Source: Sipunculus nudus
Lineage: Eukaryota > Annelida > Sipuncula > Golfingiida > Sipunculidae
Assembly (NCBI GenBank): GCA_026874595.1
Contig: CM049307.1
Span: 73,446,643-73,510,642 of the forward strand
Direction of reading: 5' to 3'
Length of the DNA: 64,000 nt
Shown: positions 2,088 through 63,296 of the stretch, piece after piece
How the letters are laid out: each line of letters begins with the position of its first letter
How positions within the stretch are numbered: the first letter of the stretch is position 1
Program-made: the position numbers and the translations under genes
Notes under the pieces: model-generated
Database searches by the model: none
What the model was told of the DNA's origin: nothing
What the model saw: only the letters and a program-made list of their open reading frames with translations

Positions 2088-2180
2088 TTAACATCATGTT
2101 TTTCAACATTTAAGTGGACAGATATAAAAAAATTTTGGTTTTATTCATTTGCACAATACAAACTTATTATATAAGTATTG

Positions 2181-2312: not shown

Positions 2313-2363
2313 TGATTTGTCCCACGTGGCGTCTCCTGGTCAAAGGTCACGCATGCCATTTTT

Positions 2364-39660: not shown

Positions 39661-39974
39661 TCTATTGGTTATATAGCTGACTGGCATGCAGTTGCCATGA
39701 AAACAGAACCCTAGTCTATCTTGTACCTTTTCTGTCTAAATAAGAATATTTTACATAAACAAAAGAGACTCATATCCGAAAGTACCCAGTAAAATTCCAA
39801 TGAATCTTTTTGCGGAAACGGTGATTATGGTTTAAGGAACAAATCCATTATATTTCGCTTGCAGATTTGGAAGTACATACTCGTGTGATTTCCATTCCTT
39901 ATTTTTACTTTGGCCTGACTGTATTTTCAGGATAATGTATTCTGTATATTCAGTTTTTTCTTAAGTTGTTTCAG

Positions 39975-40048
39975 GAGTTCAGGAGGTTCTGACGGGTGTG
40001 TTTGAAGGCCTGGTCCGGTAAAACTGATGGTCGACAGAATCAAGTAAA
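39975..40048 (+). other. Probable 5' UTR part of the first coding exon of the HLTF-like gene
   Basis: A T-rich acceptor (CTTAAGTTGTTTCAG) ends at 39974, so this stretch may be the untranslated start of an exon whose coding part begins at 40049. An in-frame TGA at 40025-40027 prevents the reading frame from extending further upstream within this exon. A weaker alternative acceptor at 40037 cannot be excluded and would allow an upstream coding exon. The region to the left back to 39660 shows no gene. Confidence 0.4.
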
Positions 40049-40114
40049 ATGGAGGACCAGCAGCTGTACCTGGAACAGGATGACTTGGTTATCCCATCTG
40101 GAATACTATCGCAG
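40049..40114 (+). CDS. HLTF: HLTF-like exon 1 (start codon, residues 1-22)
   Basis: ATG at 40049 opens MEDQQLYLEQDDLVIPSGIL, then SQ, with donor GTATAA at 40115 and phase 0. The DDLVIP stretch resembles the QDVIPPDDF segment that precedes HIRAN in human HLTF. The product therefore starts about 40 residues shorter than the human protein, unless an upstream exon exists. Confidence 0.65.
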
Positions 40115-43100
40115 GTATAAACTAGGAATCTGCATTCTGAAGAATGCAAGCCTTCGCCACATGGGGATCCCTATTATGGGATTCATTCCAACCCGTGTTT
40201 TCATTCACTTATTCGGACCATATTGCTAGATTCACTCGTGCATTATGACACTAAATTTGTAAATATTCCTTTATGACATTACTGAAACCGGATCATGTGC
40301 CGGAACCTCACCAAAATCTAATCGATTCTTCTTTGCAATCTGCCCGAAATACCCTAGAAATACATGAGATTTCGTTTGTTGTGAAAAAAAATATACACAA
40401 ACACACACACGAACGGGTATTAATGCATACCCTCCTGGCGGAGGCGATGAAACACTTTCAATATTGTCAAGTACAGGTGATTCCCGGTGAGCTAAACTGT
40501 AGAGCTTCATAATAGTTTGACCTGCAACCTTTACAATCTAATAAATTGGACTATGTTCTATTTTTAGATCTTGAAAAAGTTCACTTTGATTTCTTTTCTA
40601 AGAGTAGTGTATGCTTAGAATCGTACCCACAAAAGCTTTGGTTAGAAACTACCTCTGGCGTCAGGATGTAATGTGTGAACAGGACTACATACTTCTGAGA
40701 TAGAGAGAGTGAGGGGGGGGGGGGGGAGGAGGAAGGGAGAGAAAGTACTGTCCTTTTAATAACAACCATGCATTGATTTGCGGCTACAATATTTTTACTG
40801 CGCTTCACGCAGTATCATTTCAGAATCAAAGGTTATTTGATAGTTATTAATAACCGTATTGATACCGTGTTGATGCTTGCCAGAGCCAACGATAATCATA
40901 TCCGTGTTTCTTACATCTATTGATATATCAGTATATCATACAAACCGTAATAATCAATGAACCTTGGCTGTAATTTAATATTCAGGATTCAGCGGCCCAT
41001 GAATCACCATTGTAACACAAATTTATACTTGTCTTTATTTCTATGTAACAATGGTTTTGTCGATACCTATATACAGTAACGGCCACGTCTTATACACACC
41101 TTTTAACCAGAGTTATTCTTGGTGAAAAAAATACAAATACAAATGGCAGTTTCATATAAAAGGCGAATGCAAGTGCTGCATTTTGTCGGAATAATTAAGT
41201 ATAAGAACATCAGACACTAATCTGTGATTGGCTTCTACAGAAGATACATGCCATTAGAACTAAAGGAATCCATTTAATTTTGGTAAAGCAAATTCCTGGA
41301 CAGCTAGATCTTTACACACGTTCATTATTCCAGTTAGAGAGTCTCCTGGATAAATTTCTCGATACTTATATTGCCAATAAAACATCTTATTTTTATCTTA
41401 CTGAGAGGCTGAGTTTTGATGGTTTACCATTTGATCCAAAACTGTTTAAGCGCCCTTTGAAAACCAGCTTCAATTCACAAAGATTACAATTTCAACGCAT
41501 TTCTAGATATAATTCTTGATACATGTTAATAACTCTTTATATTGCACCATTAATTTTGTCTTTTCCAGAGTGACCCCGTAACAGATCCTATAATGACTGC
41601 AATTCAAAACACGGCAGTGTTTGGTACCTTCCATGGAACTGTTACTGGGGCTGAAATCAACCAAGCGACAGTAAGATAATCTTATATTTATGTAAGGTAT
41701 AATAGTAGATGTTCATTTTACAGTTACACTGGGTTAGATCGCCAGTTTTTTAACAGCCACTCTATGTGTAATCCAGCTATGGGGAGGGAAGTTAATTTAT
41801 CACGCGTGTGCGCTCCTGCGCACACTTTTTACCAGTCTTTTTTCCCTGCATTGTAGGGGAAGTGGGCACATTCTTTAATTATAACTCATATTTTTTTTTG
41901 CTATTTTTAAATATATCAATGCGGCGCCCTGTCATACCGGCCTTACTGTCTTGTTGTCTGCGAAAGAGGTAACGTACATTGTATATATGTAATTAATCCG
42001 TTATGTCTATAGTTTTCATATTAGGTTTAGACAATACACCTGTTAATGTTACTTTTACTGCCCAGAAGGCCGCTCAGGATCATATCAGACTGACAATTAC
42101 AGCTCCCTCATATGGTACGAATTTCTAGGATCAAACCTATTGCATGTTTATTTTCAGTACATAAGACTTCCTGTAAACAAAATCGAACTGTCTGTGGTGA
42201 CAATGGAAGTCTCGCTAAAAACACAGAGTTGGATGTTACATGTAATGCAAATATAAGGTATCAGACTATCAAATTTTGTCGGAAACATTAAAGGGACCTA
42301 ATCATTTAAAGGGACCTAAGCATGTTGAATAAACACGAAAAATAGCGTCTTCTCTTTGAAATAAATATAGGCCTGTCAAAATATTGCCCTGAAACCGTAA
42401 GCTTAATCCTTTACACGAATGTAAAAAAGTGCACCGGGCGCGATCACTGGTGCCAACATAAACAAAGCGCTATGGACTCCGTGGTTTGCCGGGGCCACAA
42501 CACTTGTCAATCATGAGAATTCCCGACTGACTTTGACCGGAAAAATGAAAATACATGTTCCCCTGGACCCAACCTAAAAATCTGTTTCGACAGGTTCTAC
42601 AATTATTAATATACATTCGGCCCATGGAGCGTAATGTCGATCCAGCAGAGATATATCTGAGGACATGAGGGGGCATGTATGGACTAGTTTGGACTACTCT
42701 GTGTTAAGGATATGTCACGCACGCACAAATTTGGACCTCCGGTCACGCGGTCTTGTTATCGTTAACAGACACACGTTGACCGTGCTTAAAAAGAAGCACT
42801 TGGACTGTGTGCTGGGATGGTTCTGCTGGTTGAACTGATAGTGTGAAAGAATATGTATAATATTGCTCCTGGTTATGTCTCTTTAATCGATAGGCCTAAT
42901 CTGAGCAGAAAACGGTAAACATTATAGTCTTTTCACAATATTGAAAATAGATGACTTAAAAAAGATGGCACAAAAAAGATACATTTATCCGAACACTTGT
43001 AATATATCTGATTTTTAACTTAATAATTTCGTATATAAACACCTTTGGTAGTCATTTCTCAATTTGTGTTAATTTAAATAAGGTTAGAAATGTCTTTTTC

Positions 43101-46100
43101 ATCGACTTACTTTGTATTTACACAAATAAATCTATAATGATAAGGTGTTAAATAAAAAAAGTACTTGTTACAATTGTATTGTATAAAATTTATATTACAG
43201 TGGTATGTCCAAATGGATATAATGAAAAGCTGATAATTCGGCTTTATTCAGATTTGTTTTATTCTTACAGGTGGACCATGGTGATATGGTTTATGTTCGT
43301 AAGGATCCTACTGGTGGTAACATGTTGCAGTTAGTCACACTATCAGATTCCGTCATAGTAGGTCATCTAGAGCAGGGTCTGGCCACTGCTGTCGCAGCCG
43401 TTATGGATGCTGTTAAAGCTGAAGGAACAGGGTAAGTCCTAGAGTGTGCTGTGCATTTTGACTGATCAGTCATTCAACAAATACAATGGTGAAGCGCTCG
43501 CTGTCTGTTACCTAATATCTCAACAGCCACTCCAGCAGTCATTATAAAAAATCGCGGACACAATGATTATATGCATAGTAAAAATGCAGAAATAAGCTTT
43601 TTTTGGCTCTACCTATTTTTACCTACTTTCCGCGTTCTATTGTTATTCCCTTTTCCCCAGGGTAAGTAAGGAAGTATTATTATTTCTGCTTTCACATCAT
43701 AGCCAACAATTCCTAAGAGGATTTGAAATTATACGAGACAGAATGAATTGACTGGATTCAATTAAAAAATGCTGCATTGACGGAAATTTAACAATCTGAA
43801 ATGTTTGAACGCAATTAAAATTTTGCAGTCATCTGTACTAGAACCCTGTGCAGGCCCCCACCCTACCCGCGGGCTGCGGGTAATGCAGCTGCGGGATTAG
43901 TTATGTTTCTAACAAAATTTAAAATTTCGCCATTATTTTGTATTACCTTGTATTTTTTTTATATCAGGGCCTTGTGGAAGATCAGACACAGTCTGAACAG
44001 GTCACCATGAATAAAGATTTCTTAATAAATGAATAAATACTTAAACTAGAATGGCTTTGTTTTTGAAGCGCAAAAACAAATATATGTCTCTCCCCTGTCT
44101 GCCATCCCAAAACATTAGGGGTAAAATATGGACTATCTCAAAACAATCATTCAAGATTTCAGCAGATTTAACCTTGAAGATCAAGGTAAAGGTCACCCCT
44201 TTTTTAATTCCTCCGAGATTTTGGCAGAGAGAACTGGTGTGTAAAATTTGTAGAAAAGAAGTTATAGGGGGCACAATAATCCTAGAATTGCATAAATTTG
44301 ACCTTGAAGACCGATGTCAAGGTTACTAGTAACAAAAATATTCCGAGAACTCATTAAAAACAATTTGTGTGTAGAATGTGAGGGAAAAATCCGCAATATT
44401 TAATAAGTGATTGTGTTCACAAGACAAAACCTTGGAAGGTAAAATTCAAATTTTGGAAGAAAATATCCAGCCCTTCAAAAGCTATCGCGCTCACAAGGCA
44501 ATAACTATAATTCGGCTGATTTGACATTGAAGATCCTAGTCAAGGTAGGCGGTTTTTTAACTCGCCCAAGAACTTTGTAAGAACTAATTTGTGTACCAAA
44601 TTTGAGGACAAAATGTGAAACACTTAAAAAGAAACGAGGTTAAAAATTTTTGATTTTTTTTTCAGAATGGCTACAAACTTGATCTATTAATGACCCACCT
44701 CTTAATAGGAAACATTTTGATTTTCAGGGTCCAGAGGTCAAAGGTGAAGGTCACAGGACCGTCATTCTAAAAAATTTTCTTTAAAATGTCCTGTAGACAA
44801 ATACAGCTGAGCGTCGAGACCCCTGGGTCCCTAGTTACATGCATGGGGCGGTGCGCTACGGGTTTTGTGGGCAAGTTAATATTGATGATGGACCGTCACG
44901 TGATAATAGTATCCTGCTTTATATGGTAATAAACGGTGGTATATATTCCATCCTCTTTTGTAGTGTTTTACAGAAAACACAGACTGGTGTAACTGTTGAG
45001 TTGATATTGTCTGGTATACCGGAGAGAAAGGCAGAGGCCGAGAGTTTGCTGAGTTCCTTTGTTCTAAACTTGAACGAATCGTCAGCACATACAGACGGAC
45101 ATCAGTCACATGACCAATCAGTTCTGCCCAGTACATCCACCGACATACCGACCTTTAATCCAGAGAGAGTATATCTGCCAAATGAACAGGTACAAATTCC
45201 CATTTACGACGACTCTATAATCTTCTGGGAATAGTGTTAATTATATGGTACATCTTTCTGGTTAAGCCATCGGACTCTAATATATAAAACATCGGAATTT
45301 CTTTTTGGGTAATCCCTATACCTCTGCATGCAAAAACATTTCGAGAAGGCTTAAAATATCACAGCTGTCATCTTTGCATTTACTAAGACCCCTGGCCAAG
45401 GGTGTTACCAAACACTTGAATGCTTTTGACCTTGGAGTTACTAAGTTATGGGATGCATGGGTAGCTGGCGAATACAGAAGTAATAATTTCTTTATTATTT
45501 AATTTACATTGTTTAGATATTTTGTTTCATAGAGATAAATGGATATAAAGAATAGACATGCTTAATAGAAAACATTAAGCAAATAGTAAGGTAAGATGTG
45601 ATTTACATTTGTGATATCATCTACACATCCGACTATACACCAGGTGCCTATACCTGTATTTATAGATGACAACTTACCTTGATCAGTTATTTGAGAACCT
45701 GAAGGAGGATGACCAGACTGCAGAAATGGAACCAGCAAAGGTATATGACTCAATGATATGCTTTTAATTTAAATCAGGCCACATGTCTTAAATTTTGCTC
45801 ACTAAGGCTATTGAATCTAAGTGAATGTTTGTAAAATTAACAGCTCCATAAAATAGTTTAAATAAAATGAAATTCTGTGTCTATTCTGTGGTACCGATAA
45901 GCTGTTTACTGCCCAATCGAATTCCAGTCAGATTGAGGGAAGATAGCATTCTGTCTCTGTTAATCAGTCTTCCCTTTAAAGTGTTCGTCCTCCCGTAGAA
46001 ATCATATACAGCAGGACTAGAAATTTCTTAAGGGACATCATGGCAGGAGCTGATCTTTCAAAATTACTTGTGTTTCATAAACAAACTTACTTTCCCCAGA

Positions 46101-49100
46101 CCACAAGTTTTAAAGGGACATCATGGCAGGAGCTGATCTTTGGAAATTACTTGTGTTTCAAAAACAAACTTACTTTCCCCAGACCACAATTTTTAAAGGG
46201 ACATCATGGCAGGTGCTGATCTTTGGAGATTACTTGGGTTAAAAAAACAAAATAACTTTCCCCAGAACACAAGTTTTAAAGAGACATCATGGCAGGAGCT
46301 GATCTTTAAAAAATTACTTGTGTTTCAAAAACAAAATAACTTTCCTCAGACCACAATTTTTAAAGGGACATCATGGCAGGAGCTGATCTTTGGAAATTAC
46401 TTGTGTTTAAAAAAAACAAAATAACTTTCCCCAGATCACAATTTGTAAAGGGACATCATAGCAGGTGCTGATCTTTGGAAATTACTTGTGTTTCAAAAAC
46501 AAACTAACTTTCCCCAGACCACAAGTTTTAAAGGGACATCATGGCAGGTGCTGATCTTTGGAAATTACTTGTGTTTCAAAAACAAAATAACTTCCATCAG
46601 ACCACAATTTGTAAAGGGACATCATGGTAGGTGCTGATCTTTGGAAATTACTTGTGTTTAAAAAAAAAACAAAATAACTTTCCCCAGACCACAGTTTTGA
46701 AAGAGACATCATGGCAGGAGCTGATCTTTGGAAATTACTTGTGTTTCAAAAACAAACTAACTTTCCCCAGACCACAAGTTTTAAAGGGACATCATGGCAG
46801 GTGCTGATCTTTGGAAATTACTTGTGTTTCAAAAACAAAATAACTTCCATCAGACCACAATTTGTAAAGGGACATCATGGTAGGTGCTGATCTTTGGAAA
46901 TTACTTGTGTTTAAAAAATAACAAAATAACTTTCCCCAGACCACAGTTTTTAAAGAGACATCATGGCAGGAGCTGATCTTTCAAAATTACTTGTGTTTCA
47001 AAAACAAAATAACTTTTCCCAGACTACAATTTATATACGGCCAATAGCAAGACATGATGAATGTTGTATTTTCACCTATATATGCATCCCTGTTTGTCTG
47101 TATTCTTCATTTCTCGTAGTCATTTGGATAAATTACAAATTAGTTTTATGAAGAGGGCTGCCTTGATGTTACCCGTCTTCAGATGTGCAAGCAGGGTCAT
47201 ATTTGTCTGTTTGTTCATCTGTCCACCAACTGTTGCTGACATCTAGTTCATCTAGTTGTAGATTTAAATATTACAAGACAGGTGGTCACGTAAGAAGAAC
47301 TTCTATATTACACATTTGAGATTGACCCCAAGGAAAACCTGGTTTAGTTATGCGTTTTCTGAGTGGTGTCGTGTTCTAATGCTGTTTATATGCTCTGTGA
47401 TTGGTGATCCAGGCTATCTGCACCAAGCTGTACAAGCACCAGAAGCAGGCACTAAGCTGGATGGTAAAACGGGAAAATGAAAATGACCTTCCTCCATTCT
47501 GGAAGGTTAAAAGGAGAATATATTACAATACACTCAGCCAGGAGTATTCTGACGTTCCACCAGCAAGTATACGAGGAGGTACTCAATCACATTGTTCTAT
47601 TCCTATCTATATTGTTACTAGTAGCATGGTAGAAATATCAAAATACACAAAAATACTAATACTAAACAAAACGCAGTTTTGCTGCCACGGTATTCTCACT
47701 GTTTTGACATTTGATGACTTTATTTATCATTTACATGAAGCCACACGGTACATTGAATGCATGAGAATATCCACAACTCATATCACCCATCATGCGTCGG
47801 AATACGAAACTAGATCACAATAAACAGGGTTTTACCTTAATTTACACGTTTCGTTCTTGGATTATTATGGTTTGACTGAAAAGTTCTGCTGTGATAATAA
47901 CAAACATTACAGTATAAACCATGTTCTTCACAGTTAGTTGGGCAATTTTTAAGTTGGTCCATTTAAAAGAAGTATATATGCCAATGTATACCAAACCTAT
48001 AGACAGCACTCAACTGTTCCCAATTACGCCGCTCACTGATTGTGGTCCTCAGGTGAGACATGTAGTTTAAAAACCTGACACGTTGAAAAAACATATAAAT
48101 AAGGAAGTTACAAATAAACACCATTCAGTAGATCGGGTTTTGTCTGAACAACATATTAATGACAAAGAGAGCACAAATATATTCCCATAAGGTTCACTAA
48201 GTTGTGGATAACGCACAACTGGAGAGACTTCGCTTCACCGTACAAACGTCTTGCCACAGGAATATAATAGTTAAAGAATTATCTGAATATCTGTCACAGC
48301 TTGAATTGGACCACACGGGACATTGTCCTGAAGACAGTTTCTTTACATATCTAATAAAGTAATTCAAACATTTAGTCATGTAGTCGACAACACATTGCTC
48401 TCTCAATTTCTCTACAAATTGACTAAGGTGAGCTAATAATACACCATTTAAACTATTTATGCCACATTTTTTTTCTATAATAAATGAGATAAATTCGATT
48501 GATGCATCGTTGAAAAATTTCCTGCGTGTGGGAATGTAACCCCTAGGGAAGTTAGTCACTGTCTTTACACATACTGAAGGCACTGCAAGCTACTAGAATT
48601 ACATACTGAGGTTTTCAGTTGTATACTCTTACATTTGTTTTATTTATCTGGTCTTATTTGTTTCAGTCCGATTAAAAATTGCAACTTGAACTATGTTACA
48701 AATGTTTACAATTCAGCAAGTCAGAGATAGGATGGCTGATAAATGTTGAAAAGTGAATGAAGGTAGTAGATTAGCTATAAATGTACACAAGTTAAATATC
48801 TATTTTACCATATGATAGGCCGGCATTCAAAAAGTTTTTTTTTCATCAAGTGATAAATTTGTTCTGATGACTTAAAGGGGCCTAACCACCTATCTGACCG
48901 TTATAACTAAAGGTAATCTCTTGGAGCTTTTATAAAAAAAATAAGCCAGAAAATATGGGTATCACCGCTCAAAGACTAGCTGCTTATTTTGTTTATAATA
49001 TGTAGAGGCCCACCAAAACATTCAAAACAAATTCAATAAGGGCATTTAACAAGCCAGAGCTTTGCAAATGGCGTTTTACAACAAGTAACCTATCTATCTT

Positions 49101-52100
49101 CGCATATATGCAACCTACTACCTTAGGTTACATGTGTTTTCCCCGTTTGTCATCATTGGTGTGTTTACAAACATGTTGTTCATATATCCTTCACGAAGGC
49201 GTTATATGAACTTTTCACAACTAAAATACCCCTAGATCATTAATATATACAGAGAGGAAGCTAGAAATTACATGAATTCTTTTTCAAAAGGCAGGTGATT
49301 GGGCACCTTTAATTTATATATCATGACACAGTGTTTAATGTTTCCAGGTATACTGGCAGACGACATGGGACTAGGAAAAACTCTAACAGTGATTGCCCTT
49401 ATACTCACCAACTGTAACAACAAACAACCATTGGCTGTTCCAGTTGAGGGTTATATCAGAAGGTCAAAGGTTGGTTAGCAAATGTCAGGGTATTTGTTGT
49501 ATTTGGAGGATTTATCTTACAGAAAAAAACTTTAATATGATGCAATTACAAGCATTACAAAAAAAGCAGAAGTTTTATACAGCTAATTGTGTTATCATGA
49601 CTGTATTTCTTTACACCCATTAAAATTTTTCATGGTAGACCAACATGTTCCTTAAGGTTTCAGTTCAACACGTTTCAGCATGTTTGATTGGTAAATATCA
49701 TGGGGTAACCGTTTGAGTAGTCAACGCACATTTTATGACCAAATATCAGTTGATGAAAGGTTACATTACACGTATTGTTTATGAAAATCAAGAAAATATA
49801 AGTTTTGGAACGTGTGATCGTAAACGTAACCATAATTTTGCTTCGTTTGCCTTATATCAACAAGTCGCTTGCTGTTTCCAAACAATACTGTGTTGATTCG
49901 TAGAAGTATAGTATCAGATTATAGAATAAAAAAGATTTTCTTTCTGTGGTAGGTCTCATAATCCAGTCAAAGAGGACTATCATAATTTGGTTCAAATATT
50001 AAGTATATGTTGATAGTTACATATTCCAGATACATCGGGAAAAAATGTCAAACATAACAGAAGTACTTGGTCCTCAAGTGTTTAGGGTTATGCCTTATAA
50101 ATGAAACAGCTTGTACATCATACAACAAGTGCGATTATAACAATAAGCCACATAACATAAGAATTTGTCTCAATGTAGTTAGAGCAAAAGATGAAGCAAG
50201 CAAAAAATAAGAGACCAGCTGAGAAAGACCCAAGGCTTCATTGTATGATGAAGATGAAGAGAGCCAACACAGCAGCATCACTATCTTCATCTGAGGACAC
50301 AACCTGCACCATTCTATCCAATAACAGTAGGTTTTGTTGAAATGCGGAAAACTGGTTGCTAGTGTTTACTGGAAATTTAAAAAAAAAAACTGATGGAAAT
50401 TTCAGTTGTGTCAAAAGCATGTAAATAAGATATGGATACTTACTAAGTACCTGTTAAACTGTTGAGATATAGATAATATAATCTTGATGATGGGTTATTC
50501 ATTGAAATGTAAACATATCCATTTAAATATGTAATAAAAAACAATTGACCAATTGAATCACAGGCGAGAGGAAAAAATTCATTATGTGAGGGTGTTGCTG
50601 CAAAGCGTTGTATCCAGTTGCCTGCAGATACTTCAAAGTGTATTTAAATAATATTAAGCACCGACTTGTTCGGTATAGCCTTAGTACTGGCGAGGGTAGC
50701 GTAACGACAAGAAGCCCGAAGGACCAATACCAAGGCCAATACCAAGGTAATACCCAGCACGTTAGTTCATAATCTAATACTTATAAAAGGAATTCGGTCC
50801 ACCTTTGCTCGCAATGCTCTCTGGAACCGAGTTGCGTAAGACACTGTGTCAGACCTCATTTTGAAGGTTATTGTTTCCGCAGTGTTCTCTCCTATGAGAA
50901 CAAAACAATTTAATGTACACATCATTTTGAGTGATTTTCGCGTGTTTTCTGACTTGGGGGAGACTACCATGCACCGAAAACAGCCGAACTGCCTTCGGCA
51001 AAGACCGGATCGTCTTCATGGTCATTTCCAGTGCAGGATAAAGGACTATTATGCCTGTGATTAACCTTGCTTTCAGTGACGGATTTAAGCATAGTTGCCC
51101 TAAAATTTGACAAAGGCTCTGACCCACGTGCGTGGTCAGTCAACGTGAAACATACATCACTTTATGAACCCAGGAACATTAATAACAAAACCTAATACAA
51201 GGTCCCCGTTTCCACAAAAGGGGTGATGTTCGCAGGGGCGGATCCAGGATTTAGGAAAAGGGGGGGTCCAACCCAGGAGGACTAATGAAAATCCTAAAAA
51301 AAAAGGTCATCACGTCTGGAAAAGGGGGGGGGGGTCCAGGCCGCAAAATTACGTCTAAAACCCCTTAAAAAAGGTTGCATCGGGTGAAAAAGGGGGGGTC
51401 CGGACCCCCTGGACCCCCCCCCCCCCCTGGATCCGCTTCTGGTTCGGGTGGGTTGGGAAGTTTCAGGCCTCAATATTGGTCTGTTACAATTTAAAAAGGG
51501 TTGCGGCTGAAAAGGGGGACGGACCTCCTGAACTCCCTTTTTGGTCCGCTTCTGCTACTAAAGAGGTATACATACGTATTACAAACGTACATTTAATTCA
51601 TCTTTTATGTCCTCCTCACATCAACGTTTTCATTAAACTTCAAATAATAGTAACCAGTCAAAGATTATCGAAAACCTGATACCCCCATGTCCCATTCCAG
51701 TTCCCAAATGAAAAATTTCATCATTGACCAGGTCTTCAATTAAGGTATAAACATACCGGTGTATGAATTTCTTGCCACGAGCACAGGGCCACAAAATAAA
51801 TTAAAAATATATTTATACATATCTTATTGAGGCAGTAACCCACTGAATTCTATATTTTCTTTTGATTAAAAAAAAAACCCAACACTCTCCTATCAGTCAT
51901 CTCCCCAACCAGCCGTGACATCTCGACTCAGCAGGTATTCGGATAATTGGGCTGGTAAGCCTACTTGAGTCGTGATACAAGTAATGTCGAGGAATGAATC
52001 GCAGTGGTCTTTCATCAGGTTACATTCATATTGTGGTAAACAGCCCATAATCTCAATATTATGCTAAGAATGATGAATCAACACAATAGTAAACATGTTA

Positions 52101-55100: not shown

Positions 55101-58100
55101 GCCACATGTACAAAACATGTAAATTTGCAAAATGACAGCCATTACTGGAAATGGCAATCTATGTGTATTCCGGTGATAAATAAAATGGAATTAGCAGACT
55201 TTGTTATATATATTATATTTAATGATAATTGAAGTAAATAACTTTATATTTACTGATTTCTAAAGCTATTGTTACACATCACTTTGGCAAGAAGGAACAA
55301 TCATATTTGTTTTGCAGACAAGCTTTGCATAATGAAACTGAACTTGGATCCGAGTCATTCCCCATTCAAGGTAAGATTCATATGGTGTGAGTGTAGTAAT
55401 GGGAAAGTTGTCAACGTCACATGTTTCTATCAGTACACGAATGAATTAAACAAATAGTTCTACATATAGAGTATGACTAGGCTGCTGTTTAACAAAAATG
55501 TAATTTCATACAATTATCTTTTCTCCTGTCATAATTTCTGTTGCTACAGTGGATGGAGAGACCAGTGCCCTTGTAATAGACACATCAAGTGATATATCAA
55601 ATGATGGATCACTCCACAATAAGAGGTAATTGTCTTTTTTGCATTCATATTAAAGACAGAATAAACAATGGAGAAATGAAAATCATTTCTTTATTTCCAA
55701 ACATACATCAAAATTAAGCAATTTTTAAACCCATAACAAGTTATTACCACACGATCACCTGGAACTCAAAGTTATATCTTCAACACAGACCGAGAAAAGC
55801 AGCATAGCACGTAACCTCCTTTCTATTAAAGTCTTCGAAATCCTGCAGCGGAAAATTACCTAACATTTGACTTTGTTTATTGTTATTAAACATTAGTATG
55901 GTTAAGGTAAGAGGCACTTATAGGGTTTGACACAGTCTCGGTTTGAGGATCAGCCTAGCAATAAAAAGTAAAATAACGGGGCACTATACCAGAGAAAGGT
56001 ATAATGAGGAGAGTGTAGGTGAGTTTACCTGAGCGCCTAATCATTTTTTTGGCCAGTGAATAAGCACCGAAACTGAATGATCTTTAATGTGATCACCAAA
56101 CATTATTTTCCAAAAGAAATATAAATTAAGTAGTAAAATACGAATAAATTTTAATGTAATGCTACACTGTTTATTTTGCAACCAAATTTATTATTACATG
56201 TTCATGTGGTTTGTAACGGGGTAAAACGTATTTACCATGTAAGTTATCTAATATTTTCATGGCAATTGATATGTTATTTAAAGAACTTACTTTCGCTAAT
56301 AAGTGTTAGATGAAATCTATATAAAACATTATGATAGTCAACTGATAACAATTTCTTTTGTTATACTGTCCATCATTTGCACATGCTCTTTGTAACAGAG
56401 CTGTTAAAAGACCTCTGAGCCACAAAGATGATGATCATAGCATGGGACCGGCAGCAGACGTTTCTTCAAGTAAAAGAGGTAAGAAATGTTTACGAAATTC
56501 CCTTTCAAATGTGCAATGTATTACGTGAACATTTGAACCATATTATAGATACTGCTGAAGGTTCGGTGTATATTAAAAATGTTAAATCTGAAATAAAGGT
56601 AAGTTTTCGCCGTAAATCAACCTGCCTTATCTTCTGATATTTCAGGCAAGCGATGAATAATATGAAAATATTAACCTTACATATAATCTTGTATTTTTGA
56701 GTAAATAAAAATTTATTCTTACTTTATACATTTGGTGGGGAACATGACAAAGTTTAACAACAAATATATATAATCCAGTTGTGGGGTTCTTCAGTCATTT
56801 CTCATGACATTAAAAAACTGAAAATGTAGTGTGTGATTACTGAAAGAAAAGAATACATAAATATATTGGTACTTTTTAGAACATTGGTCAATATCATGAC
56901 AGAGCCTCTCTACACATTATACTTAAGAGATTTTTTGTTATTTCTGGACTCTTTTCACGTATTAAATACATCCTGCTTCTGCTGCTGTTGCTTCATTATT
57001 CCTTTCATGTCTTATATATGAAACCTGAAAGATATATTTTTGGTATATTTGAAATAAAGATGATTTTTGTTGTGATAAAAAAATTTATGTAAGGAAAACT
57101 GATGGCCTAACTGTTTTATTACTTGCTCTTATTATCACAGTGGCCATAGACCTGATATCAGTAGCGTCAGACTCGCCATCAGTAGCCTCAAACATGTGGA
57201 CTGATGACTCAGACCCATTATCAGTAGCTTCTGACTCGCCAACAGTAGCCTCAAACTTGTCATCAGACATGCCAACTGGAGTTTTAGACCTGTCAACAGT
57301 GGCCTCAGACTTGTCAGAGGGCTCACCCTCCACCCAGGCCGCAGCAGGTCAGACTCAAAACCCGACTCCTGAATTCGGTGAGTCTGTTAAAGCAGCAGCA
57401 GCCCACGTGATGGGGACGGGTGGTGGGTCACATCATCTACAACAATACATTGAATCATCCACACCAATCCATCATCAGTCACCTAAAAGGTTGAACTTTA
57501 AGAAGCTGTCCCCATGTCGGCCAAAGAAACGAACATCAGGTAAGTTTCCTTACCGTACATGGATTTTTCGTATATTTTTGTCCAACTTTCTGGTTTTTCT
57601 TTACGAGAGATATCGACATTGGCGATGGAAGGTTCTAAACAGTAAGCCTTTGATACATGTTGGTAAGTTATGTTGAAGGAAATAACTTTAAACAAATAAT
57701 GCATTTTAAAAAATTGTGCTACAAATGTTATGGTAAGCTTTAGCTTATACGGGTAAATGTTCATTTGATATTACGTCTAAGGTCAATGTTTGTCAGCTGA
57801 ACATTATGACTCATTCGTTTGATGCTAATGGTGTGTAAAATAGTTTAAAATAACCAATAAAATTCTTTTCTTTATTTTAAACATAATGCAAGTTTAAATG
57901 GGTCGGTTTCTTCTTCAGATAATAACATACTGCCAGATTTATCCCCTATGACAGAAGAGCCATCATCGCCTAAAATCATCACACCACACCTAGAGCCGGA
58001 GGTGACTGAAGGTCCTAGGGCACCACATGAGGTGACTGAAGGTCCTAGGGCACCACATAAAGAACCTCAGATGACTGAAGGTCCGAGGCCAACGCTGATT

Positions 58101-59860
58101 GTTTGTCCTCTGTCTGTGATGTCCCATTGGAAGGTAAATCGCTTCCTGGCTATAATACCATTTTTGTAATTTCATAATAATCAAGTAAAACCTCTAAGGT
58201 TCGGCGAATTATAACTTTATTGACGACGGGAATATGAAATTAAAATGCAATAAATGAAAATTAATTTATCTGTTTTAATGCAAGTTTGTTTCCTTAAATA
58301 AGTTGAGTTGCATTATGTGTTGCTTGTTTTCTTCAGGACCAATTTGAGGAGCATGTGGAGTTTTCCGTGGAGTTGAAGATCACCCAGTTCCACAGTTCAA
58401 GTCGTACTGCAAATCCAAGACTGCTTTCACAACAAGACATAGTCCTCACAACATATGGGACTGTCAGTGCTGATGCCAAGGCAAGCGTGAATTTCAACTT
58501 CACTGTCATTTTAAATAGGTTGTCATATTTTCAATTATTTTATAGTTTGGTCTACCAAATGGTTATATGAACTAAATTCCTGAGCCACGTCAACTAAAAT
58601 CAGTTATTTATAGATACTCATTTGCCATTTCTATGTCAAAACCTGTCTATAAAGATTTTGACCAGAACTTTCAAAGCATAGAAATGTATATTACAGTTGT
58701 TGCAATCACTTCAGTCGCTTTTATTCTTGTGGAGAGTGGCAGTGTTGGGAGTCGTGCGTGTCCTAGGGAAAAGACTCTCCTCCAAACACAGGTAGAGCAG
58801 TTGCTGTAGGTCCTGGAATATGATGGATGTCTTGCCGTCCTGGATCACTTTCTCTGGTCTTTCTGTGCCTGATAGTGCCACACGCTTAACTTAAACGGGT
58901 GCTTCATCTCTGCAATATCCAGACACAAACCAAATTATGCTTCTTTTTCGAATACAGCTCCATTTCACAATGCTGCCTGTTTGGAAGCCCCGAAGACCCT
59001 CTATATGTAATATCATTCCATGACGGTAAGGAGAGTACCGGAAGGTGTCGCGCGTTTCCACAACGTTTGGCTTGTATTTTTTCTTACTGCTATCACACAC
59101 ATTCAGTTCCTGCCATTCGATATCTGACACAAGAAGTATTAAGTGCCTGCTTGCAAGCAAAGACCAGAATGCGGCAAGTGCTGATACGCCAATGTTGTTT
59201 ACAGCGATGGGGCACTTGACACTACAGAGACTCATCGGCTACTTCGCTCATGCCTGCGAGAACTTTAGACTGCCTGTCAGTTTGCAGAAGACAGACCTCG
59301 TGGGCAAGGATCCTAGCAACATCACAACCATCCGTTTGGGTAACTTGAGGATTTCACCTTCCTAGGCATAACAGTCTGGAAGCAGCATCTGCAGTCAAGG
59401 CAGGAGAGAGAGAGAGAGAAATAGGGGGGGGGGAGAGAAAAAAAGAGAGCGTTGACTACCGAACACCTCATCACAGTCGTTGCAGCATTTACCTGCACTA
59501 TCTGCAAAAGTCTCCCGTGTAATGATTGTACAGCCACCAAAGGCAGTACCACTCACAAACAGAACGACAAACCTCAGGCAAAACATCCAAACTTCCGACA
59601 CAGACGATGCAAACAACAAAGAACTGTGGATGGATGATTCCAAGTCGGAGAACCAGTTTTGAGATCGTACATATCAGAATGTTGTGAATATTATTATGCA
59701 CATTAGATTGAAAGTAATTAAACCTGTTTTGAATCTTAAAATACTAATCTTTATGTAGATATCATTAATTAGTTGTATGGTTGTTTTCCTTGAACAGACC
59801 CGTGCAAGTTTTTACTGTTCATTGAGTACTGATGATTTGAAACTTTACACACAAACACAC

Positions 59861-59912
<52 letters not shown>

Positions 59913-62900
59913 CCAGGGCAAAGGAATACTTCGGCAAGTGGAATGGTTGCGAATTGTACTTGATGAGGGGCACACTATTAGGAATCCACATGCCAAGCAA
60001 ACAATAGCCATTCGAGAGCTTTGTGCTCAGCGAAAGTGGATTCTAACTGGTAAGTAATCATCGTTAAATAGGCCATCAAATCATGCTGATAATAATACTG
60101 CTGAGGATTAGTTTTAATAACGTGTATGTAAATTGTATGATCGTACTATGCTTCCCTACTTATTCATCTACCTAAGTTATCCAAGTTTTACTGTATTTAA
60201 CAATCTCTGTCATGTTTCAGTGATGGTATATTTTATGTTACAGAAATTCGTTTGTAATATTTTACATATGTATTCAACTTCAAAGTTACATTTTTTTTTA
60301 TCAACCGCAAAGTTCTTGATTTCTTTTCCATTGTCATTTCCATTAAAAAAACAAATTACAATTATTTTGTGTGCATAAAAATATAATTTTGGTTAATAAT
60401 GTAACACTGACGAATGGCATGTGTACTTTAGATGGGTCTTTATTTTTACAGGGACACCAATACAGAATTACATGAAAGATTTGTATTCACTGGTCAAGTT
60501 TCTTGAAATAAAGCCACTGGATGACCATAGTTGGTGGACATGCATGGTGGAGCGTCCACTGAAAAGTGGAGAAGAACAGGCATTTAAGTAAGTCCTAATT
60601 AATGGTTGCCTTAGCAGTCCTGCTACTTTAAGCTTCCACATTTTCCGGTGAAGATCAATATACTGGCCGTATATAGTTTGAGATGATTCATGAGAATAAA
60701 AGTTCTTTTTTTAACAGTTCTACATTTGCTTTATCTGAAGTGAAATGATTACAAGGTGGCATGAATGCTAGGTAACACAAGTTTCGATAGTGCGACCAAA
60801 AAGACTCTCTCTCTCAAAAAAAAAAAAAAAAAAAAAACAAGCACCCGTCACCAAATAGCTCATTGTCAAAATGAACTCCAGGCACCTGTTTAGAGACCGG
60901 TAGGAATATGAACTGACTCCAGTATTATTAAATTCTTTGCGTATCCAAAATGTTCAACATGGCCCCTAGTGAGTTCAGAAGTAACTTGTGTTGTCTTATG
61001 AGAATTGCGCACGAGGATCTGTGTGTTGCAAATTCCCCCTTCATATGTGAAAAGTACATGCAGGATACGTGTGAACAGGCAAACTGTCAAAGATTACAGC
61101 CATAAATAAATGTTTATGCCAAGTTTGAATTCACAGAAGAGTACGCCGCCTGCTGAGTGCCATTGCAATGCGGAGGGTTAAGACACAAATGGTGAACGGG
61201 AAGCCCCTGCTTCAACTGCCAGAGAGGACGGTGTGCATGGAAAAATTGATCATTGACCCTGAGCAGAGAAAACATTATGATCTCATGGAAAATGAGGGGA
61301 AAATTATCATATCCAGGTGACAACTCTACAAATTTTACATATGAGAATGTATGTGTTAGTCATATCCTATTAAATCAGTTGTTTTTTTCTACATTACCCT
61401 GTCAAGGCCATTATTCAAAATAGCAGTTTACTAAAATATACACTATGTGGCATAAGTTAATACTAGCGTAGTACTACAGCATAGCAATGCATATTATGCT
61501 TAACTTCCATTACTGAAGAATGTTAACTCGGACTTAATTTCCCCGAGTTTGCTGGATTCAGATTAAGAAAATTCTTAAGTTAATGTACGCTGTATGCTGG
61601 CATTTTGCTCAGGTTAATGCAGGCTTCAGACAAGTTAGGGCAGGCTACAGACTTTACATGCGTTATAGCTGGGTACAGACAAAAATGTACCCAAAGTATT
61701 TGGAAGCTGCTACTAAATAAGATTGACTCTGAATCGAAAATTGCCAGATGCAGACTAAGAATGAGGAATAGCTGATGCAGCCTACCTGTCAGGACTCTAT
61801 ATAAATTCTTGTAGGATACAGCGAAATCAGAACATTCGGACCAAGAACATATAGACTAATTTGTATGATTTCTAACCGATTATAAATAAGCAATTCACCT
61901 GAACTATTTTTGAGCTGGTGTTCATCTGATTTTTATACCGCAGATTGCATAGGCAGGGAAAGTTACTTCGCTACTATACCAAGGTACTGGCCATATTGGT
62001 GAGGCTACGCCAATTTTGCTGTCATCCAAGACTTGTAGCTAATGCCATGAAGTCTACGAATACAGCTGGTAAGTACAAGAGACTGGGATATAGCCTAGTC
62101 ATTAAACAATTGAGTACCAAGTAACATCTCGGTGACATTTAAAATCCGGCATACCCAGGATATGGTTGTATTTTTCATACATAATAATGATGTTATCCGT
62201 TACAAAACATCTCAGGTATAATAGTTTCAGTTATCATGACAGGAACCGTTGCAATGATCAACTTTATTGGTCATGTGACCAACATTCAGCATTAGGGTTT
62301 TAACATTGACTTTTGGATACAGGCACTGTCAGAGTAGCTTCCATTTTTTCTGTTCCATTTTCACCAGTTTTCAAGCATGAAGTGGTGGGTTCTGGGTCTC
62401 TTGTTTCATTTTAGCAGGGGGAGACCAAGGTAATTTGGACCAGAATAAAGATCAAGCTGACAGTGATGAGGGACAGCTAAGGAACTACCTCATGGCTGTG
62501 CTGAACTCAGGGTCACACGAGGAATGCCCCATCTGTATGAGGGATCTCAGAAATCCCGTTGTCACAAAGTGTGTTCATGTTTTCTGCCGAGCATGTATTG
62601 AAGGGGTCATCGAAAAAGACAAGGTGGGCACCGTTGTGCCTTGATTCTTTCAGTTAGGATTAGTGCCAGCTGTTGTCTGTTTACGTGATATTCAAGTAAT
62701 AATTCACATACATTAGAGACTCATCTGTTTCATGTATAATATAAATAAACAATAATAATGTAAACGTCTGATCCGAAAAGAAATGACCCAGCATTAACAC
62801 AGTTTTGTTTAACAGTTACTTGTTCGCATGAAATACCTTAGAAAGTTTTAATCCGTCTGATGATTGGTAAATCCGAGTTCCAATCACTCTCCAGCACCTC

Positions 62901-63296
62901 TGGTCAAAAGTAACATTATTTTCTTTAGGCCAGTGTCATAAAGTTAAGAATTTTGTGTTTATTTTTCTTAACTATGCTAGTTACAACTCAATCGTCACCC
63001 TTTATTCAGAAACCATGGATTTAAACCGTCTTATTTAACATTTAACAAACCTCATATATGAAGCAATTTGATATTATTTAAAGACCTTAAATGAAACCGC
63101 TATATTAAATTTTCAATTCTTTCTTAAAAAGTTCCTGTTGCATTATTATGCGCGTGTTACCTTACAGCCAAATGCCTCGTGTCCAATGTGCAGTGAATCC
63201 ATCACAAGCGACACCCTGAATGAAGTGGCAGAGCTTCAGGATGCAAGTGACCAGACACCAGACGACAGTCAACACATTTGGGAATCAAGTTCAAAG
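40049..63296 (+). CDS. HLTF: HLTF-like SNF2 ATPase / RING ubiquitin ligase gene, 3'-partial, 21 exons
   Basis: The spliced product is 1017 codons so far: HIRAN domain (residues about 38-150), Q-like HQKQALSWM (219-227), motif I DDMGLGKT (270-277), long Ser/Pro/Thr-rich linker (about 307-645), motif Ia region PTLIVCPLSVMSHW (651-664), DEGH box (729-732), LTGTPIQN (756-763), conserved block through QFCCHPRL, and C3HC4 RING (C942, C945, C957, H959, C962, C965, C979, C982). HIRAN + SNF2 + inserted RING is diagnostic of the HLTF/Rad5 family, which remodels stalled forks and polyubiquitinates PCNA in the nucleus. The second helicase lobe is beyond the window. SHPRH and Rad16 lack this N-terminal HIRAN, so HLTF fits best. 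Odd points: HIRAN pocket residues are replaced, and the linker is about 375 residues against roughly 135 in human HLTF. Confidence 0.9.
41569..41670 (+). CDS. HLTF: HLTF-like exon 2 (start of HIRAN)
   Basis: Acceptor TTTTGTCTTTTCCAG; donor GTAAGA. It encodes residues 23-56 with AVFGTFHGTVTG, matching the first HIRAN strand of human HLTF (VLFGSLRGHVVG). After that, human RYYTG is replaced by EINQA. Intron 1 (40115-41568) also holds a 79-codon ORF (41280-41519) without exon borders. Confidence 0.85.
42306..42886. mobile_element. TTAA-flanked MITE, copy 2, in intron 2
   Basis: The left end TTAAAGGGACCTAAGCATG is preceded at 42288 by a near-identical TTAAAGGGACCTAATCAT, so the end is doubled. 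The right end GGTTATGTCTCTTTAA (to 42886) is the inverse of the left. It belongs with the copies at 5659 and 48872 by its ends. No ORF of note. The GC-rich 42430-42720 portion differs from the other copies. Confidence 0.5.
43271..43431 (+). CDS. HLTF: HLTF-like exon 3 (HIRAN core)
   Basis: Acceptor TTATTCTTACAG; donor GTAAGT. Residues 57-110 include DMVYVRKDP and VIVGHLEQGLATAVAAVMD, which align with EMVALQRDP and QVGHLKKELAGALAYIMD of the human domain. The NPYDKNA loop between them is reduced to GGN. Ends after two bases of a codon. Confidence 0.9.
43990..44834 (+). mobile_element. Helitron-like element with CTAG 3' end, in intron 3
   Basis: The right part (44665-44834) is nearly the same as the end of the element at 17240-19444: GACCCACC(T/A)CTTAA, TTTTGATTTTCAGGGTC, AGGTCAAAGGTGAAGGTCAC, GCTGAGCGTCGAGACC, stem GACCC-CT-GGGTC, CTAG (44831-44834), TT. 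To the left are GACCTTGAAGA and AAGGT repeats with a period near 120 bases. The 5' end is unclear. It ends 129 bp before exon 4. Confidence 0.5.
44964..45189 (+). CDS. HLTF: HLTF-like exon 4 (end of HIRAN)
   Basis: Phase forces the acceptor at TCTTTTGTAG (ending 44963) rather than the later TTTTACAG (44973). With it, the codon split at 43431 is completed as Gly and the frame reads VLQKTQTGVTVELILSGIPE. Residues 110-185 finish HIRAN and lead to a Ser/His-rich stretch. The human Phe of the 3'-OH pocket (in NNAFTMPL) is Val here. Donor GTACAA, phase 0. Confidence 0.85.
45666..45740 (+). CDS. HLTF: HLTF-like exon 5
   Basis: 25 codons reading MTTYLDQLFENLKEDDQTAE and on to MEPAK. This aligns almost residue for residue with human MTTEQLKTEFDKLFEDLKED...MEPAE, one of the clearest HLTF signatures. 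Acceptor ATTTATAG, donor GTATAT, phase 0. Confidence 0.93.
46029..47035 (+). repeat. 84-bp tandem array, about 12 copies, in intron 5
   Basis: The unit begins GGGACATCATGGCAGG, contains GCTGATCTTTGGAAATTACT and TGTGTTTCAAAAACAAAATA, and ends CCCCAGACCACAA with TTTTAAA. Units differ by substitutions and A-run length. Parts of the array repeat as blocks of three units (about 252 bp): 46489-46740 is nearly identical to 46741-46990. ORFs inside (MAGADLW...) are by-products. Confidence 0.9.
47413..47578 (+). CDS. HLTF: HLTF-like exon 6 (start of the SNF2 ATPase)
   Basis: Residues 211-266 read KLYKHQKQALSWMVKREN, LPPFW and IYYNTLSQEYSDVPPAS, matching human LLPHQKQALAWMVSREN, LPPFW and LYYNTITNFS. 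HQKQAL is the Q-motif-like element in front of motif I. Acceptor GTGATCCAG, donor GTACTC, ending one base into a Gly codon. Confidence 0.93.
48197..48583 (-). other. Unsupported 128-codon minus-strand ORF in intron 6
   Basis: Long for this AT-rich context and reading FFNDASIEFISFIIEKKCGI with a LSQFVEKLREQC stretch, so it may be transposon-derived. No splice signals, start context or known motif support it. Confidence 0.15.
48872..49312. mobile_element. TTAA-flanked MITE, copy 3, in intron 6
   Basis: The ends TTAAAGGGGCCTAACCACCT and AGGTGATTGGGCACCTTTAA are inverted repeats (17 of 20), each carrying the TTAA target motif. This is the best-preserved copy of the family at 5659-6124, and it ends only 35 bp before exon 7. 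Confidence 0.7.
49348..49469 (+). CDS. HLTF: HLTF-like exon 7 (Walker A / motif I)
   Basis: Completes Gly266 and reads ILADDMGLGKTLTVIALILT, then a PLAVPVEGYIRRSK tail. GLGKT is the ATP-binding P-loop and matches human ILADDMGLGKTLTAIAVILT. Acceptor TGTTTCCAG, donor GTTGGT, phase 0. Confidence 0.95.
50179..50326 (+). CDS. HLTF: HLTF-like exon 8 (linker)
   Basis: Residues 307-355 are a basic, then acidic/serine linker (LEQKMKQAKNKRPAEK ... SLSSSEDTTCTILSNN). The acceptor (CAATGTAG) is modest. The donor GTAGGT at 50327 gives the phase needed by exon 9. The human gene has a similar unconserved basic and serine-rich insert here. Confidence 0.75.
50776..51110 (-). repeat. Dispersed repeat, copy 2 (inverted mate of 25740-26059), in intron 8
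   Basis: Minus-strand reading keeps KSLKMMCTL and FKMRSDTVSYATRFQRALRA, as in the mate with a few changes. Confidence 0.55.
51233..51441. mobile_element. Small MITE with CAGRRGCGGATCCAGG inverted ends, in intron 8
   Basis: Left CAGGGGCGGATCCAGG and right CCTGGATCCGCTTCTG are inverted repeats (14 of 16). GTTCG occurs directly outside both ends and may be the target duplication. The interior has GGTCCAACCCAGGAG-type sequence and G and C runs. A partial copy starts at 33832, and a related fragment at about 51495-51555. Confidence 0.55.
52031..52395. repeat. Dispersed repeat, copy 2 (mate at 21829-22289), in intron 8
   Basis: Same landmarks as the mate, ending GGTCGATATGACGCTA. A CpG-richer segment follows immediately. 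Confidence 0.65.
52396..54130. promoter_or_regulatory. CpG-richer, CCAAT-box-bearing segment in intron 8
   Basis: Contains AGCCAATCAGA (52549), GGCTCCGCCCATTG (52592, a GC-box-like motif), TGATTGGCTC (52918) and TGATTGGAC (52972), two of them in each orientation. CG dinucleotides are denser than elsewhere, through to GAGCCGGGGCCCGG near 54105. It could be an alternative or antisense promoter, or the promoter of a repeat. No downstream exon was identified. Confidence 0.25.
53184..53212. repeat. Perfect 13-bp inverted repeat with 3-base spacer
   Basis: CCACAACTGTGAT, ACG, ATCACAGTTGTGG: a perfect hairpin or dyad in intron 8. The arm contains the E-box-like CAACTG. No function can be read from it. 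Confidence 0.85.
54270..54375 (+). CDS. HLTF: HLTF-like exon 9 (linker)
   Basis: Completes Ser356 and reads ADGVIEVTDDSSEEAQ, then TSIYFDSRDKN. The V(I/V)(E/D)(V/T)(T/D)DSS pattern resembles a SUMO-interacting motif next to acidic serines; this is a suggestion only. Acceptor A-rich then CAG, donor GTGAGA, phase 2. Confidence 0.7.
55318..55370 (+). CDS. HLTF: HLTF-like exon 10 (linker)
   Basis: A 53-base exon between TATTTGTTTTGCAG and GTAAGA. It completes Gly391 and reads QALHNETELGSESFPIQ. Its support is splice-site quality and exact phase fit on both sides. Confidence 0.65.
55550..55625 (+). CDS. HLTF: HLTF-like exon 11 (linker)
   Basis: Reads VDGETSALVIDTSSDISNDG, then SLHNKR. ALVIDTSSD again resembles a hydrophobic-acidic SUMO-interacting pattern like that in exon 9. 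Acceptor TTGCTACAG, donor GTAATT, phase fits both sides. Confidence 0.7.
56399..56478 (+). CDS. HLTF: HLTF-like exon 12 (linker)
   Basis: Completes Arg and reads AVKRPLSHKDDDHSMGPAAD, then VSSSKR. Acceptor CTTTGTAACAG, donor GTAAGA. Weakly complex, with a basic end. Confidence 0.7.
57141..57539 (+). CDS. HLTF: HLTF-like exon 13 (large repetitive linker exon)
   Basis: Residues 461-593. The first half repeats SVASDSPSVAS, SVASDSPTVAS and STVASDLS, a Ser/Asp/Val internal repeat. The second half has an Ala/Gly/His-rich part and a basic end (PKRLNFKKLSPCRPKKRTSG) that looks like a nuclear localisation signal. Acceptor CTCTTATTATCACAG, donor GTAAGT. At 399 bp it is much the longest exon in the gene. 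Confidence 0.8.
57919..58133 (+). CDS. HLTF: HLTF-like exon 14 (linker end and motif Ia)
   Basis: Residues 594-665. It contains a 30-base exact duplication giving two copies of EVTEGPRAPH, then a third partial unit QMTEGPRP, joining directly to TLIVCPLSVMSHWK. The latter matches human TTLIICPLSVLSNW, the motif Ia region. Acceptor TTTCTTCTTCAG, donor GTAAAT, phase 0. Confidence 0.9.
58337..58480 (+). CDS. HLTF: HLTF-like exon 15, followed by a GC donor
   Basis: 48 codons: DQFEEHVEFSVELKI, then PRLLSQQDIVLTTYGTVSAD, AK, matching human DQFGQHIKSDVHLNF and ALLSKQDIVLTTYNIL. The exon ends AAG and the intron begins GCAAGC, a non-canonical GC donor with otherwise good consensus. No GT nearby would keep the frame into exon 16. 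Confidence 0.9.
58680..59400. mobile_element. Broken LINE remnant in intron 15, with halves in opposite orientation
   Basis: On the minus strand, about 58860-58685 reads TLHKNKSD-stop-SDCNN, resembling the LYKNKGDRSDCNNYRG start of a LINE reverse transcriptase. On the plus strand, about 59140-59360 reads ACLQAKTRMRQVLIRQ, then frameshifted LTLQRLIGYFAHACENFRLP and VSLQKTDLVGKD, resembling the palm region following the catalytic aspartates of the same kind of LINE. The two parts point away from each other, so an inversion or two insertions occurred. Non-functional. Confidence 0.55.
59863..59910. repeat. AT microsatellite abutting the exon 16 acceptor
   Basis: 48 bases of alternating A and T run to four bases before the AG at 59915-59916. 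It occupies the place of the polypyrimidine tract. Confidence 0.95.
59917..60049 (+). CDS. HLTF: HLTF-like exon 16 (DEGH box)
   Basis: Reads GKGILRQVEWLRIVLDEGHT, IRNPHAKQT, then RKWILT. DEGH is the Walker B / motif II of this family and matches human RWLRVILDEGHAIRNPNAQQT. Acceptor TTCCAG directly after the AT run, donor GTAAGT, ending one base into Gly758. Confidence 0.95.
60452..60587 (+). CDS. HLTF: HLTF-like exon 17 (motif III)
   Basis: Completes GTPIQNYMKDLYSLVKFLEI and KPLDDHSWWTCMVERPLKSG. Human GTPIQNSLKDLWSLLSFLKLKPF and WWHRTIQRPVTMGD are close. Acceptor ATTTTTACAG, donor GTAAGT, phase 2. Confidence 0.95.
60816..60837. repeat. 22-A homopolymer in intron 17
   Basis: A CTCTCTCTCTC stretch runs into 22 consecutive A. 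It could be the tail of a retroposed sequence, but no unit was identified to its left. Confidence 0.6.
61137..61316 (+). CDS. HLTF: HLTF-like exon 18
   Basis: Reads RVRRLLSAIAMRRVKTQMVN, GKPLLQLPERTV and DPEQRKHYDLMENEGK, matching human RLQSLIKNITLRRTKTSKIK, GKPVLELPERKV and DEERKIYQSVKNEG. This is the LRR..K and LPER block of SNF2 proteins. Acceptor TGAATTCACAG, donor GTGACA, phase 2. Confidence 0.95.
61944..62068 (+). CDS. HLTF: HLTF-like exon 19
   Basis: Reads RLHRQGKLLRYYTKVLAILV, RLRQFCCHPRLVANA. LRLRQxCCH is a Rad5/HLTF hallmark (human LLRLRQICCHTYLLTNA). Acceptor TTTTTATACCGCAG, donor GTAAGT, ending one base into a codon. Confidence 0.95.
62415..62623 (+). CDS. HLTF: HLTF-like exon 20 (RING finger, first six ligands)
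   Basis: After a Gly/Asp/Gln-rich lead, it reads LNSGSHEECPICMRDLRNP, VVTKCVHVFCRACIEGVI. C942, C945, C957, H959, C962 and C965 are six of the eight zinc ligands; human is DEECAICLDSLTVPVITHCAHVFCKPCI. The acceptor is TTTTAGCAG: AG at 62414 or 62417 both work and differ by one residue. Donor GTGGGC, phase 0. Confidence 0.95.
63168..63296 (+). CDS. HLTF: HLTF-like exon 21 (RING end)
   Basis: Reads PNASCPMCSESITSDTLNEV, AELQDASDQTPDDSQHIWES, SSK. CPMC supplies ligands C979 and C982; human is HAKCPLCRNDIHEDNLLE and DMEWTSSSK. Acceptor TACCTTACAG, donor GTCAGT, phase 0. This is the last exon visible; helicase lobe 2 should follow. Confidence 0.95.

Follow-up and report, generated by a model that had tools for sequence, protein, structure and literature searches.

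Fork reversal and PCNA ubiquitination by human HLTF have been separated with designed mutants (PMC11366124, PMC4666394). The R71E change is reported to block both 3'-OH binding and fork remodelling while ATPase and ubiquitin ligase activities are unaltered, and R71E HLTF still suppresses G-quadruplexes (PMC11366124). The NN90,91AA change is described as fully impairing the function of the HIRAN domain, and the HIRAN mutants of that report have ligase activity at wild-type efficiency and retain a significant part of the translocase activity (PMC4666394). A different arrangement is reported for the yeast relative Rad5. The Kluyveromyces lactis protein keeps 2 of the 10 HLTF contact residues, and both it and Saccharomyces cerevisiae Rad5 bind single-stranded DNA (ssDNA) without need for a 3'-OH; the Rad5 HIRAN binds PCNA and ssDNA through a conserved positively charged region, by way of which it still serves fork regression (PMC7804152). 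Here we analyze an HLTF gene of Sipunculus nudus found in a stretch of 64,000 nucleotides, referred to as the window (C2:73446643-73510642 of a genome of 1.43 Gb in 153 contigs), and compare it with a second HLTF gene that lies on chromosome C9 of the same genome. We suggest that the window copy is probably an HLTF duplicate kept for its double-stranded DNA (dsDNA) motor, without 3'-end capture, and that it naturally bears the R71E change that was engineered in the human protein.

The HIRAN domain has been retained in the window copy, as the initial annotation of this DNA had proposed. Its top match in the PDB is the HIRAN of human HLTF (phmmer, E 5.9e-5), and the N-terminal HIRAN that marks the HLTF/Rad5 family is thus present by homology and by position, with introns placed as in the C9 gene. 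The domain scores 14.8 bits against the Pfam HIRAN profile, below the curated cut-off of 24.7, and for the longer joined protein Pfam lists no HIRAN at E 0.1, against 83.3 bits for the C9 copy. The window domain was compared in three alignments, two to human HLTF (one of these from phmmer) and one to the C9 copy. Residue numbers are anchored on R71 of the human HIRAN and fit the naming of Y72, Y93 and NN90,91 in PMC4666394. In all three alignments human R71, Y72 and Y73 are replaced by Glu, Ile and Asn, and the first two of these changes agree with the initial annotation. The N91-P92-Y93-D94 loop, which it had described as deleted or replaced, is indeed so: N90 and N91 are Thr and Gly, whether P92 is missing or substituted varies with the alignment, and opposite Y93 and D94 stand gaps in two alignments and Asn and Met in the third. 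F142 is Thr (the phmmer alignment stops short of it) and not Val, as had been given. K113 is Gln. The retention of H110 stands; its description as the only residue kept does not, since N96 is kept as well in both alignments to human HLTF.

Among the eight pocket residues R71, Y72, N90, N91, Y93, D94, H110 and F142, only H110 remains (1/8), and both stacking tyrosines, Y72 and Y93, are gone. Six of the eight (R71, Y72, N90, N91, Y93 and H110) are named in papers; D94 and F142 are taken as pocket residues after the initial annotation. Almost every residue known to grip a 3' DNA end is gone from the window HIRAN, which probably cannot bind one, in line with the suggestion of that annotation that it may not. 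The argument draws on many changes jointly, and no single residue is decisive. The charge of the domain has also changed. Net charge and isoelectric point are -6 and 4.76 in the window HIRAN, +1 and 8.4 in the C9 HIRAN, and +5 and 9.6 in the human HIRAN. An overall net charge of -6 speaks against a basic region of the Rad5 type, the figure being that of the whole domain and not of its surface.

The initial annotation had proposed a search of this genome for another HLTF paralogue whose pocket is intact, and a gene with a near-intact pocket was found on C9. It gave the one match of a whole-genome Pfam HIRAN search, which missed the window gene. Its exons encode EVMFGSLRGAIVGIRYYSGT-VNNGEMVALVREPQNRYDRNAV...VGHIKREL...AANQFSMPVDLTFWG, and its HIRAN matches the human domain at E 2e-43 with an identity of 68/115 (59%; MAFFT). 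R71, Y72, Y73, N91, Y93, D94, H110 and F142 are all as in human HLTF, and the departures are N90 to Gln, P92 to Arg and K113 to Arg. The positions and phases of the HIRAN introns equal those of the window gene, and the exon series through SNF2 and RING runs parallel in the two genes. The earlier suggestion that fork reversal by HLTF in this animal would need another mode of recognition is not upheld, because the C9 copy is present; for the same reason we reject the idea of an animal without the 3'-end-binding type of HLTF.

When the genome was searched with each HIRAN, the window query gave three matches, all in the window gene, and the C9 query three, all in the C9 gene. The SNF2-RING part of the window protein gave 47 matches, 112 of 208 candidates having been scored; the window gene and the C9 gene account for 8 each, and 31 lie at other places (one examined). 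A multi-exon HLTF series was seen at the window and C9 only, and nothing in these searches pointed to a further HLTF gene, although a third HIRAN that had diverged strongly could escape them, since the C9 HIRAN query missed even the window HIRAN. The match examined, C17:53775884-53776408, is a single open frame of 1055 amino acids with a SNF2 motor that appears ERCC6L2-like by eye. In the prokaryote and virus collections, no relatives of the C9 HIRAN were confirmed among 86 and 21 pattern matches, respectively.

By sequence comparison, the window gene is a diverged, faster-evolving HLTF paralogue of the C9 gene. The two proteins are identical at 33/109 positions (30%) in HIRAN versus 312/494 (63%) in SNF2C+RING (MAFFT; Fisher P 5e-10). 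In a maximum-likelihood tree of four sequences, which carries no support value and uses a provisional human SNF2 sequence, the window and C9 copies group against human HLTF and K. lactis Rad5, with branches of 0.485 for the window copy, 0.145 for C9 and 0.345 for their shared stem. Because the two copies pair with a shared stem, the duplication is probably younger than the divergence from the human lineage. At sites where C9 equals human, the window copy keeps 24/68 in HIRAN (5 of the 44 losses are gaps) and 219/264 in SNF2C+RING (Fisher P 8e-14), the human letters coming from PDB text for HIRAN and from the provisional sequence for SNF2. A similar contrast is seen at sites shared by C9 and K. 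lactis Rad5, for which no provisional letters enter the SNF2 part: 143/175 are kept in SNF2C+RING (P 1e-11 versus the HIRAN figure). Conversely, out of 163 sites at which the window copy equals K. lactis Rad5, C9 has retained 143. Unique changes of the window copy and C9 stand at 44:4 in HIRAN and 45:23 in SNF2C+RING, and these ratios differ (P 0.0015). Thus, the acceleration is concentrated in the HIRAN of the window copy.

The NG86 estimates of nonsynonymous (dN) and synonymous (dS) divergence between the two copies are 0.71 and 2.99 for HIRAN, 0.25 and 2.27 for the linker with SNF2N, and 0.27 and 2.32 for SNF2C+RING. The pairwise dN/dS is about 0.12 in SNF2C+RING and about 0.24 in HIRAN; these values are rough because dS is saturated, and they average both branches, so they do not give a rate for the window copy by itself. 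The 19 joined exons of the window gene contain no internal stop codon. When the 811-codon coding sequence of C9 was left to decay neutrally in a simulation, as little as 0.1 substitutions per site produced 8.5 stops on average over 200 runs, with a minimum of 2.

The motor is intact by the tests applied to it. All eight SNF2 strings tested are present in both copies, and the joined window protein scores 231 bits with Pfam SNF2. Its domain order is SNF2 219-555, RING 603-644 and Helicase_C 687-795, which places the RING between the SNF2 lobes, and the C3HC4 zinc ligands of the RING are complete. At sites common to C9, the provisional human HLTF sequence and Rad5, the window copy keeps 124/138; there are 6 sites at which C9 is the only one of the four to deviate.

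The gene model is set out in Table 1. Its 19 exons comprise 7 up to position 49469 and 12 from 58071, of which 8 lie within the window and 4 past its end; no exons were assigned between 49470 and 58070. Exons 1-7 have GT donors and, exon 1 excepted, AG acceptors, and the reading frame runs on across their joins. The three HIRAN exons thereby fit the span first proposed for them (41569-45189), with incoming phases 0, 0 and 2 and phase 0 for the following exon, the same as in the C9 copy. The 12 exons from 58071 encode the remaining SNF2, the RING and the C-terminus up to the stop. One of their donors, at 58480, is GC where the C9 counterpart has GT. A processed pseudogene is rejected, as the introns are retained and the frame is open. 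The intron between exons 5 and 6 holds a tandem repeat at 46022-47032 with an 83-base unit in about 12 copies (88% matches). Elsewhere in the window there is a long tandem array at 816-4148, its unit about 180 bases long, and a unit of some 340 bases is repeated at 29868-31860 and at 17311-17943 (5.9 and 1.9 copies). Frames resembling the translation of the 816-4148 array were seen near the C9 HLTF gene among the matches listed, and the array may be a dispersed satellite.

Table 1. Exons of the HLTF gene in the window, in window positions
Feature	Position	Strand	Evidence and remarks
Exon 1, probable first coding exon (MEDQQLYLEQDDLVIPSGILSQ)	40049..40114	+	ATG, GT donor, in-frame join to exon 2; start codon from sequence only
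Exon 2, HIRAN first strand and R71-Y72-Y73 region (here E-I-N)	41569..41670	+	AG/GT, phase 0, 3' border as in C9, alignments
Exon 3, HIRAN core; N90-D94 loop lost, VGH (H110) kept	43271..43431	+	AG/GT, phases as in C9; human HLTF HIRAN is best PDB match
Exon 4, HIRAN end (F142 region) and linker	44964..45189	+	AG/GT, phase 2 in, 0 out; counterpart is C9 exon 4
Exon 5, linker MTTYLDQLFENLKEDDQTAEMEPAK	45666..45740	+	AG/GT in frame; C9 counterpart MTNELDKLFENLKEDDKGSEMEPAK
Exon 6, SNF2 ATPase start	47413..47578	+	tblastn 46% to provisional human HLTF sequence; splice sites
Exon 7, intact SNF2 motif I GILADDMGLGKT	49348..49469	+	tblastn, splice sites, string test
SNF2 motif Ia exon	58071..58133	+	5' border uncertain
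SNF2 exon, GC donor (GC-AG intron)	58337..58480	+	
SNF2 exon, motif II DEGH	59917..60049	+	String test
SNF2 exon, motif III TGTPIQN (first residues supplied by preceding exon)	60452..60587	+	String test
SNF2 exon	61137..61316	+	
SNF2 exon	61944..62068	+	
RING finger, first part (CPIC...CVHVFCRAC)	62415..62623	+	C3HC4 pattern
RING finger, last part CPMC, then Ser at linchpin Arg position	63168..63296	+	
Four exons past the window end (window numbering continued)	64654-64766, 65017-65197, 66240-66320, 66848-66991		Last one carries the stop

Several observations weigh against a duplicate kept for its motor. SNF2C+RING has also evolved faster in the window copy (45 versus 23 unique changes, P 0.008), and at its sites shared with Rad5 there are 14 changes in the window copy versus 6 in C9; this faster rate is as compatible with a general relaxation as with specialisation. 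A lone alanine substitution, whether of residue 71 or of residue 110, is reported to impair the human HIRAN incompletely (PMC4666394). In addition, the RING linchpin, the residue after the last Cys, is Ser in the window copy (CPMCSESI), one of the 14 changes just counted; C9, K. lactis Rad5 and the provisional human sequence have Arg there. The linchpin contacts E2 and ubiquitin, Arg being canonical, and about half of human RINGs are reported to have a suboptimal one (PMC10643145). Because of this Ser, a reading in which ligase activity is kept and fork reversal lost is insecure. Since so many human RINGs lack the optimal residue, ligase activity of the window copy may still be possible. Relaxed selection only, with a duplicate drifting to loss, HIRAN first, and having no specialised role, would account for the faster evolution of both parts, seen in the longer branch and in the excess of unique changes, for the loss of the linchpin and for the weak Pfam HIRAN score. 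We nevertheless think it unlikely, as the motor strings, zinc ligands, splice sites (one GC) and frame are intact over 19 exons while dS is near saturation, and dN/dS is about 0.12 in SNF2C+RING.

The window HIRAN could also have been re-purposed in the manner of Rad5, for PCNA, for ssDNA without a 3'-OH or for another partner. Such binding by the Rad5 HIRAN is the precedent (PMC7804152), and the window HIRAN is in frame with a pairwise dN/dS of 0.24. However, Rad5 relies on its positively charged region, and the acidity of the window HIRAN argues against DNA binding of this kind, so that we give this explanation somewhat less weight than relaxed selection. It is very improbable that the gene model is wrong and that the true transcript has other exons with an intact pocket. 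The exons were predicted from genomic sequence alone, and the stretch without assigned exons at 49470-58070 leaves some room for this. On the other side, the HIRAN intron positions and phases match C9, and across the genome the C9 HIRAN query hit the C9 gene only. No exon borders restoring an RYY or NPYD motif, a possibility raised in the initial annotation, were found. The sole significant tblastn match of the C9 HIRAN exons in window positions 38000-50000 was the known exon 3 (E 2.7e-4), all others having E of at least 0.08. Known exon 2 appeared at E 3.6 and known exon 4 was missed; therefore this search would reveal an intact HIRAN exon but not a diverged one. The patterns R[YF][YF] and N.[YF]D occurred three times in the three forward frames of 40049-45189 (RFF, RFF and RFY), none of them HIRAN-like in context. 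Within the sensitivity of the tblastn and the motif scan, an alternative exon that restores the pocket is rejected.

We therefore return to a duplicate kept for its dsDNA motor. According to this proposal, the HLTF duplication would post-date the human-lineage split; on C9 the HLTF toolkit would have been preserved, and the window copy would have kept the SNF2 dsDNA translocase and lost the HIRAN pocket that captures the free 3'-OH DNA end. We infer its biochemical activities, expression and cellular role from the sequence. The window protein is predicted to hydrolyze ATP and translocate on duplex DNA as HLTF does, and it would not carry out 3'-end-guided fork reversal, as in R71E or N90A/N91A human HLTF. 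Its RING should fold and bind E2, and weaker ubiquitin transfer is predicted because the linchpin Arg is Ser. Fork reversal in the animal could rest on the C9 copy. The role of the window copy in the cell would most likely be in translocase tasks that need no 3' end, or in competition with the intact copy. More tentatively, we hypothesize that HLTF has been split into two proteins, a 3'-end-guided fork reverser and a natural separation-of-function form, which would be either a HIRAN-blind duplex translocase (e.g., acting on G-quadruplexes) or a competitor holding fork reversal in check.

The window gene by itself should not be taken as a guide to what HLTF does in this animal. An HLTF paralogue of this kind was not found among papers on HLTF or HIRAN in invertebrates, duplication or HIRAN loss, judged by title and abstract opening. 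With an intact HLTF in the same genome as a copy that is changed by nature at the positions targeted in the designed mutants, one could ask whether such a separation has also proved useful in evolution.

Compared with human HLTF, the window copy has the same domain order, a RING within the SNF2 motor, the eight motor strings and the C3HC4 ligands, but it differs in its missing 3'-OH pocket, its Ser linchpin and its acidic HIRAN. The engineered human R71E and NN90,91AA proteins are altered at the same positions, R71 to the identical Glu (PMC11366124, PMC4666394). Unlike these mutants, the window copy is natural, carries many more HIRAN changes as well as the RING change, and has an intact copy in the genome. 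With yeast Rad5 it shares an HLTF-family HIRAN without 3'-OH recognition, as reported for Rad5 (PMC7804152) and predicted for the window copy. The Rad5 HIRAN has a basic PCNA/DNA region, whereas that of the window copy is acidic, and SNF2C+RING of the window gene shares 33% identity with K. lactis Rad5 against 63% with C9, which points to an HLTF duplicate.

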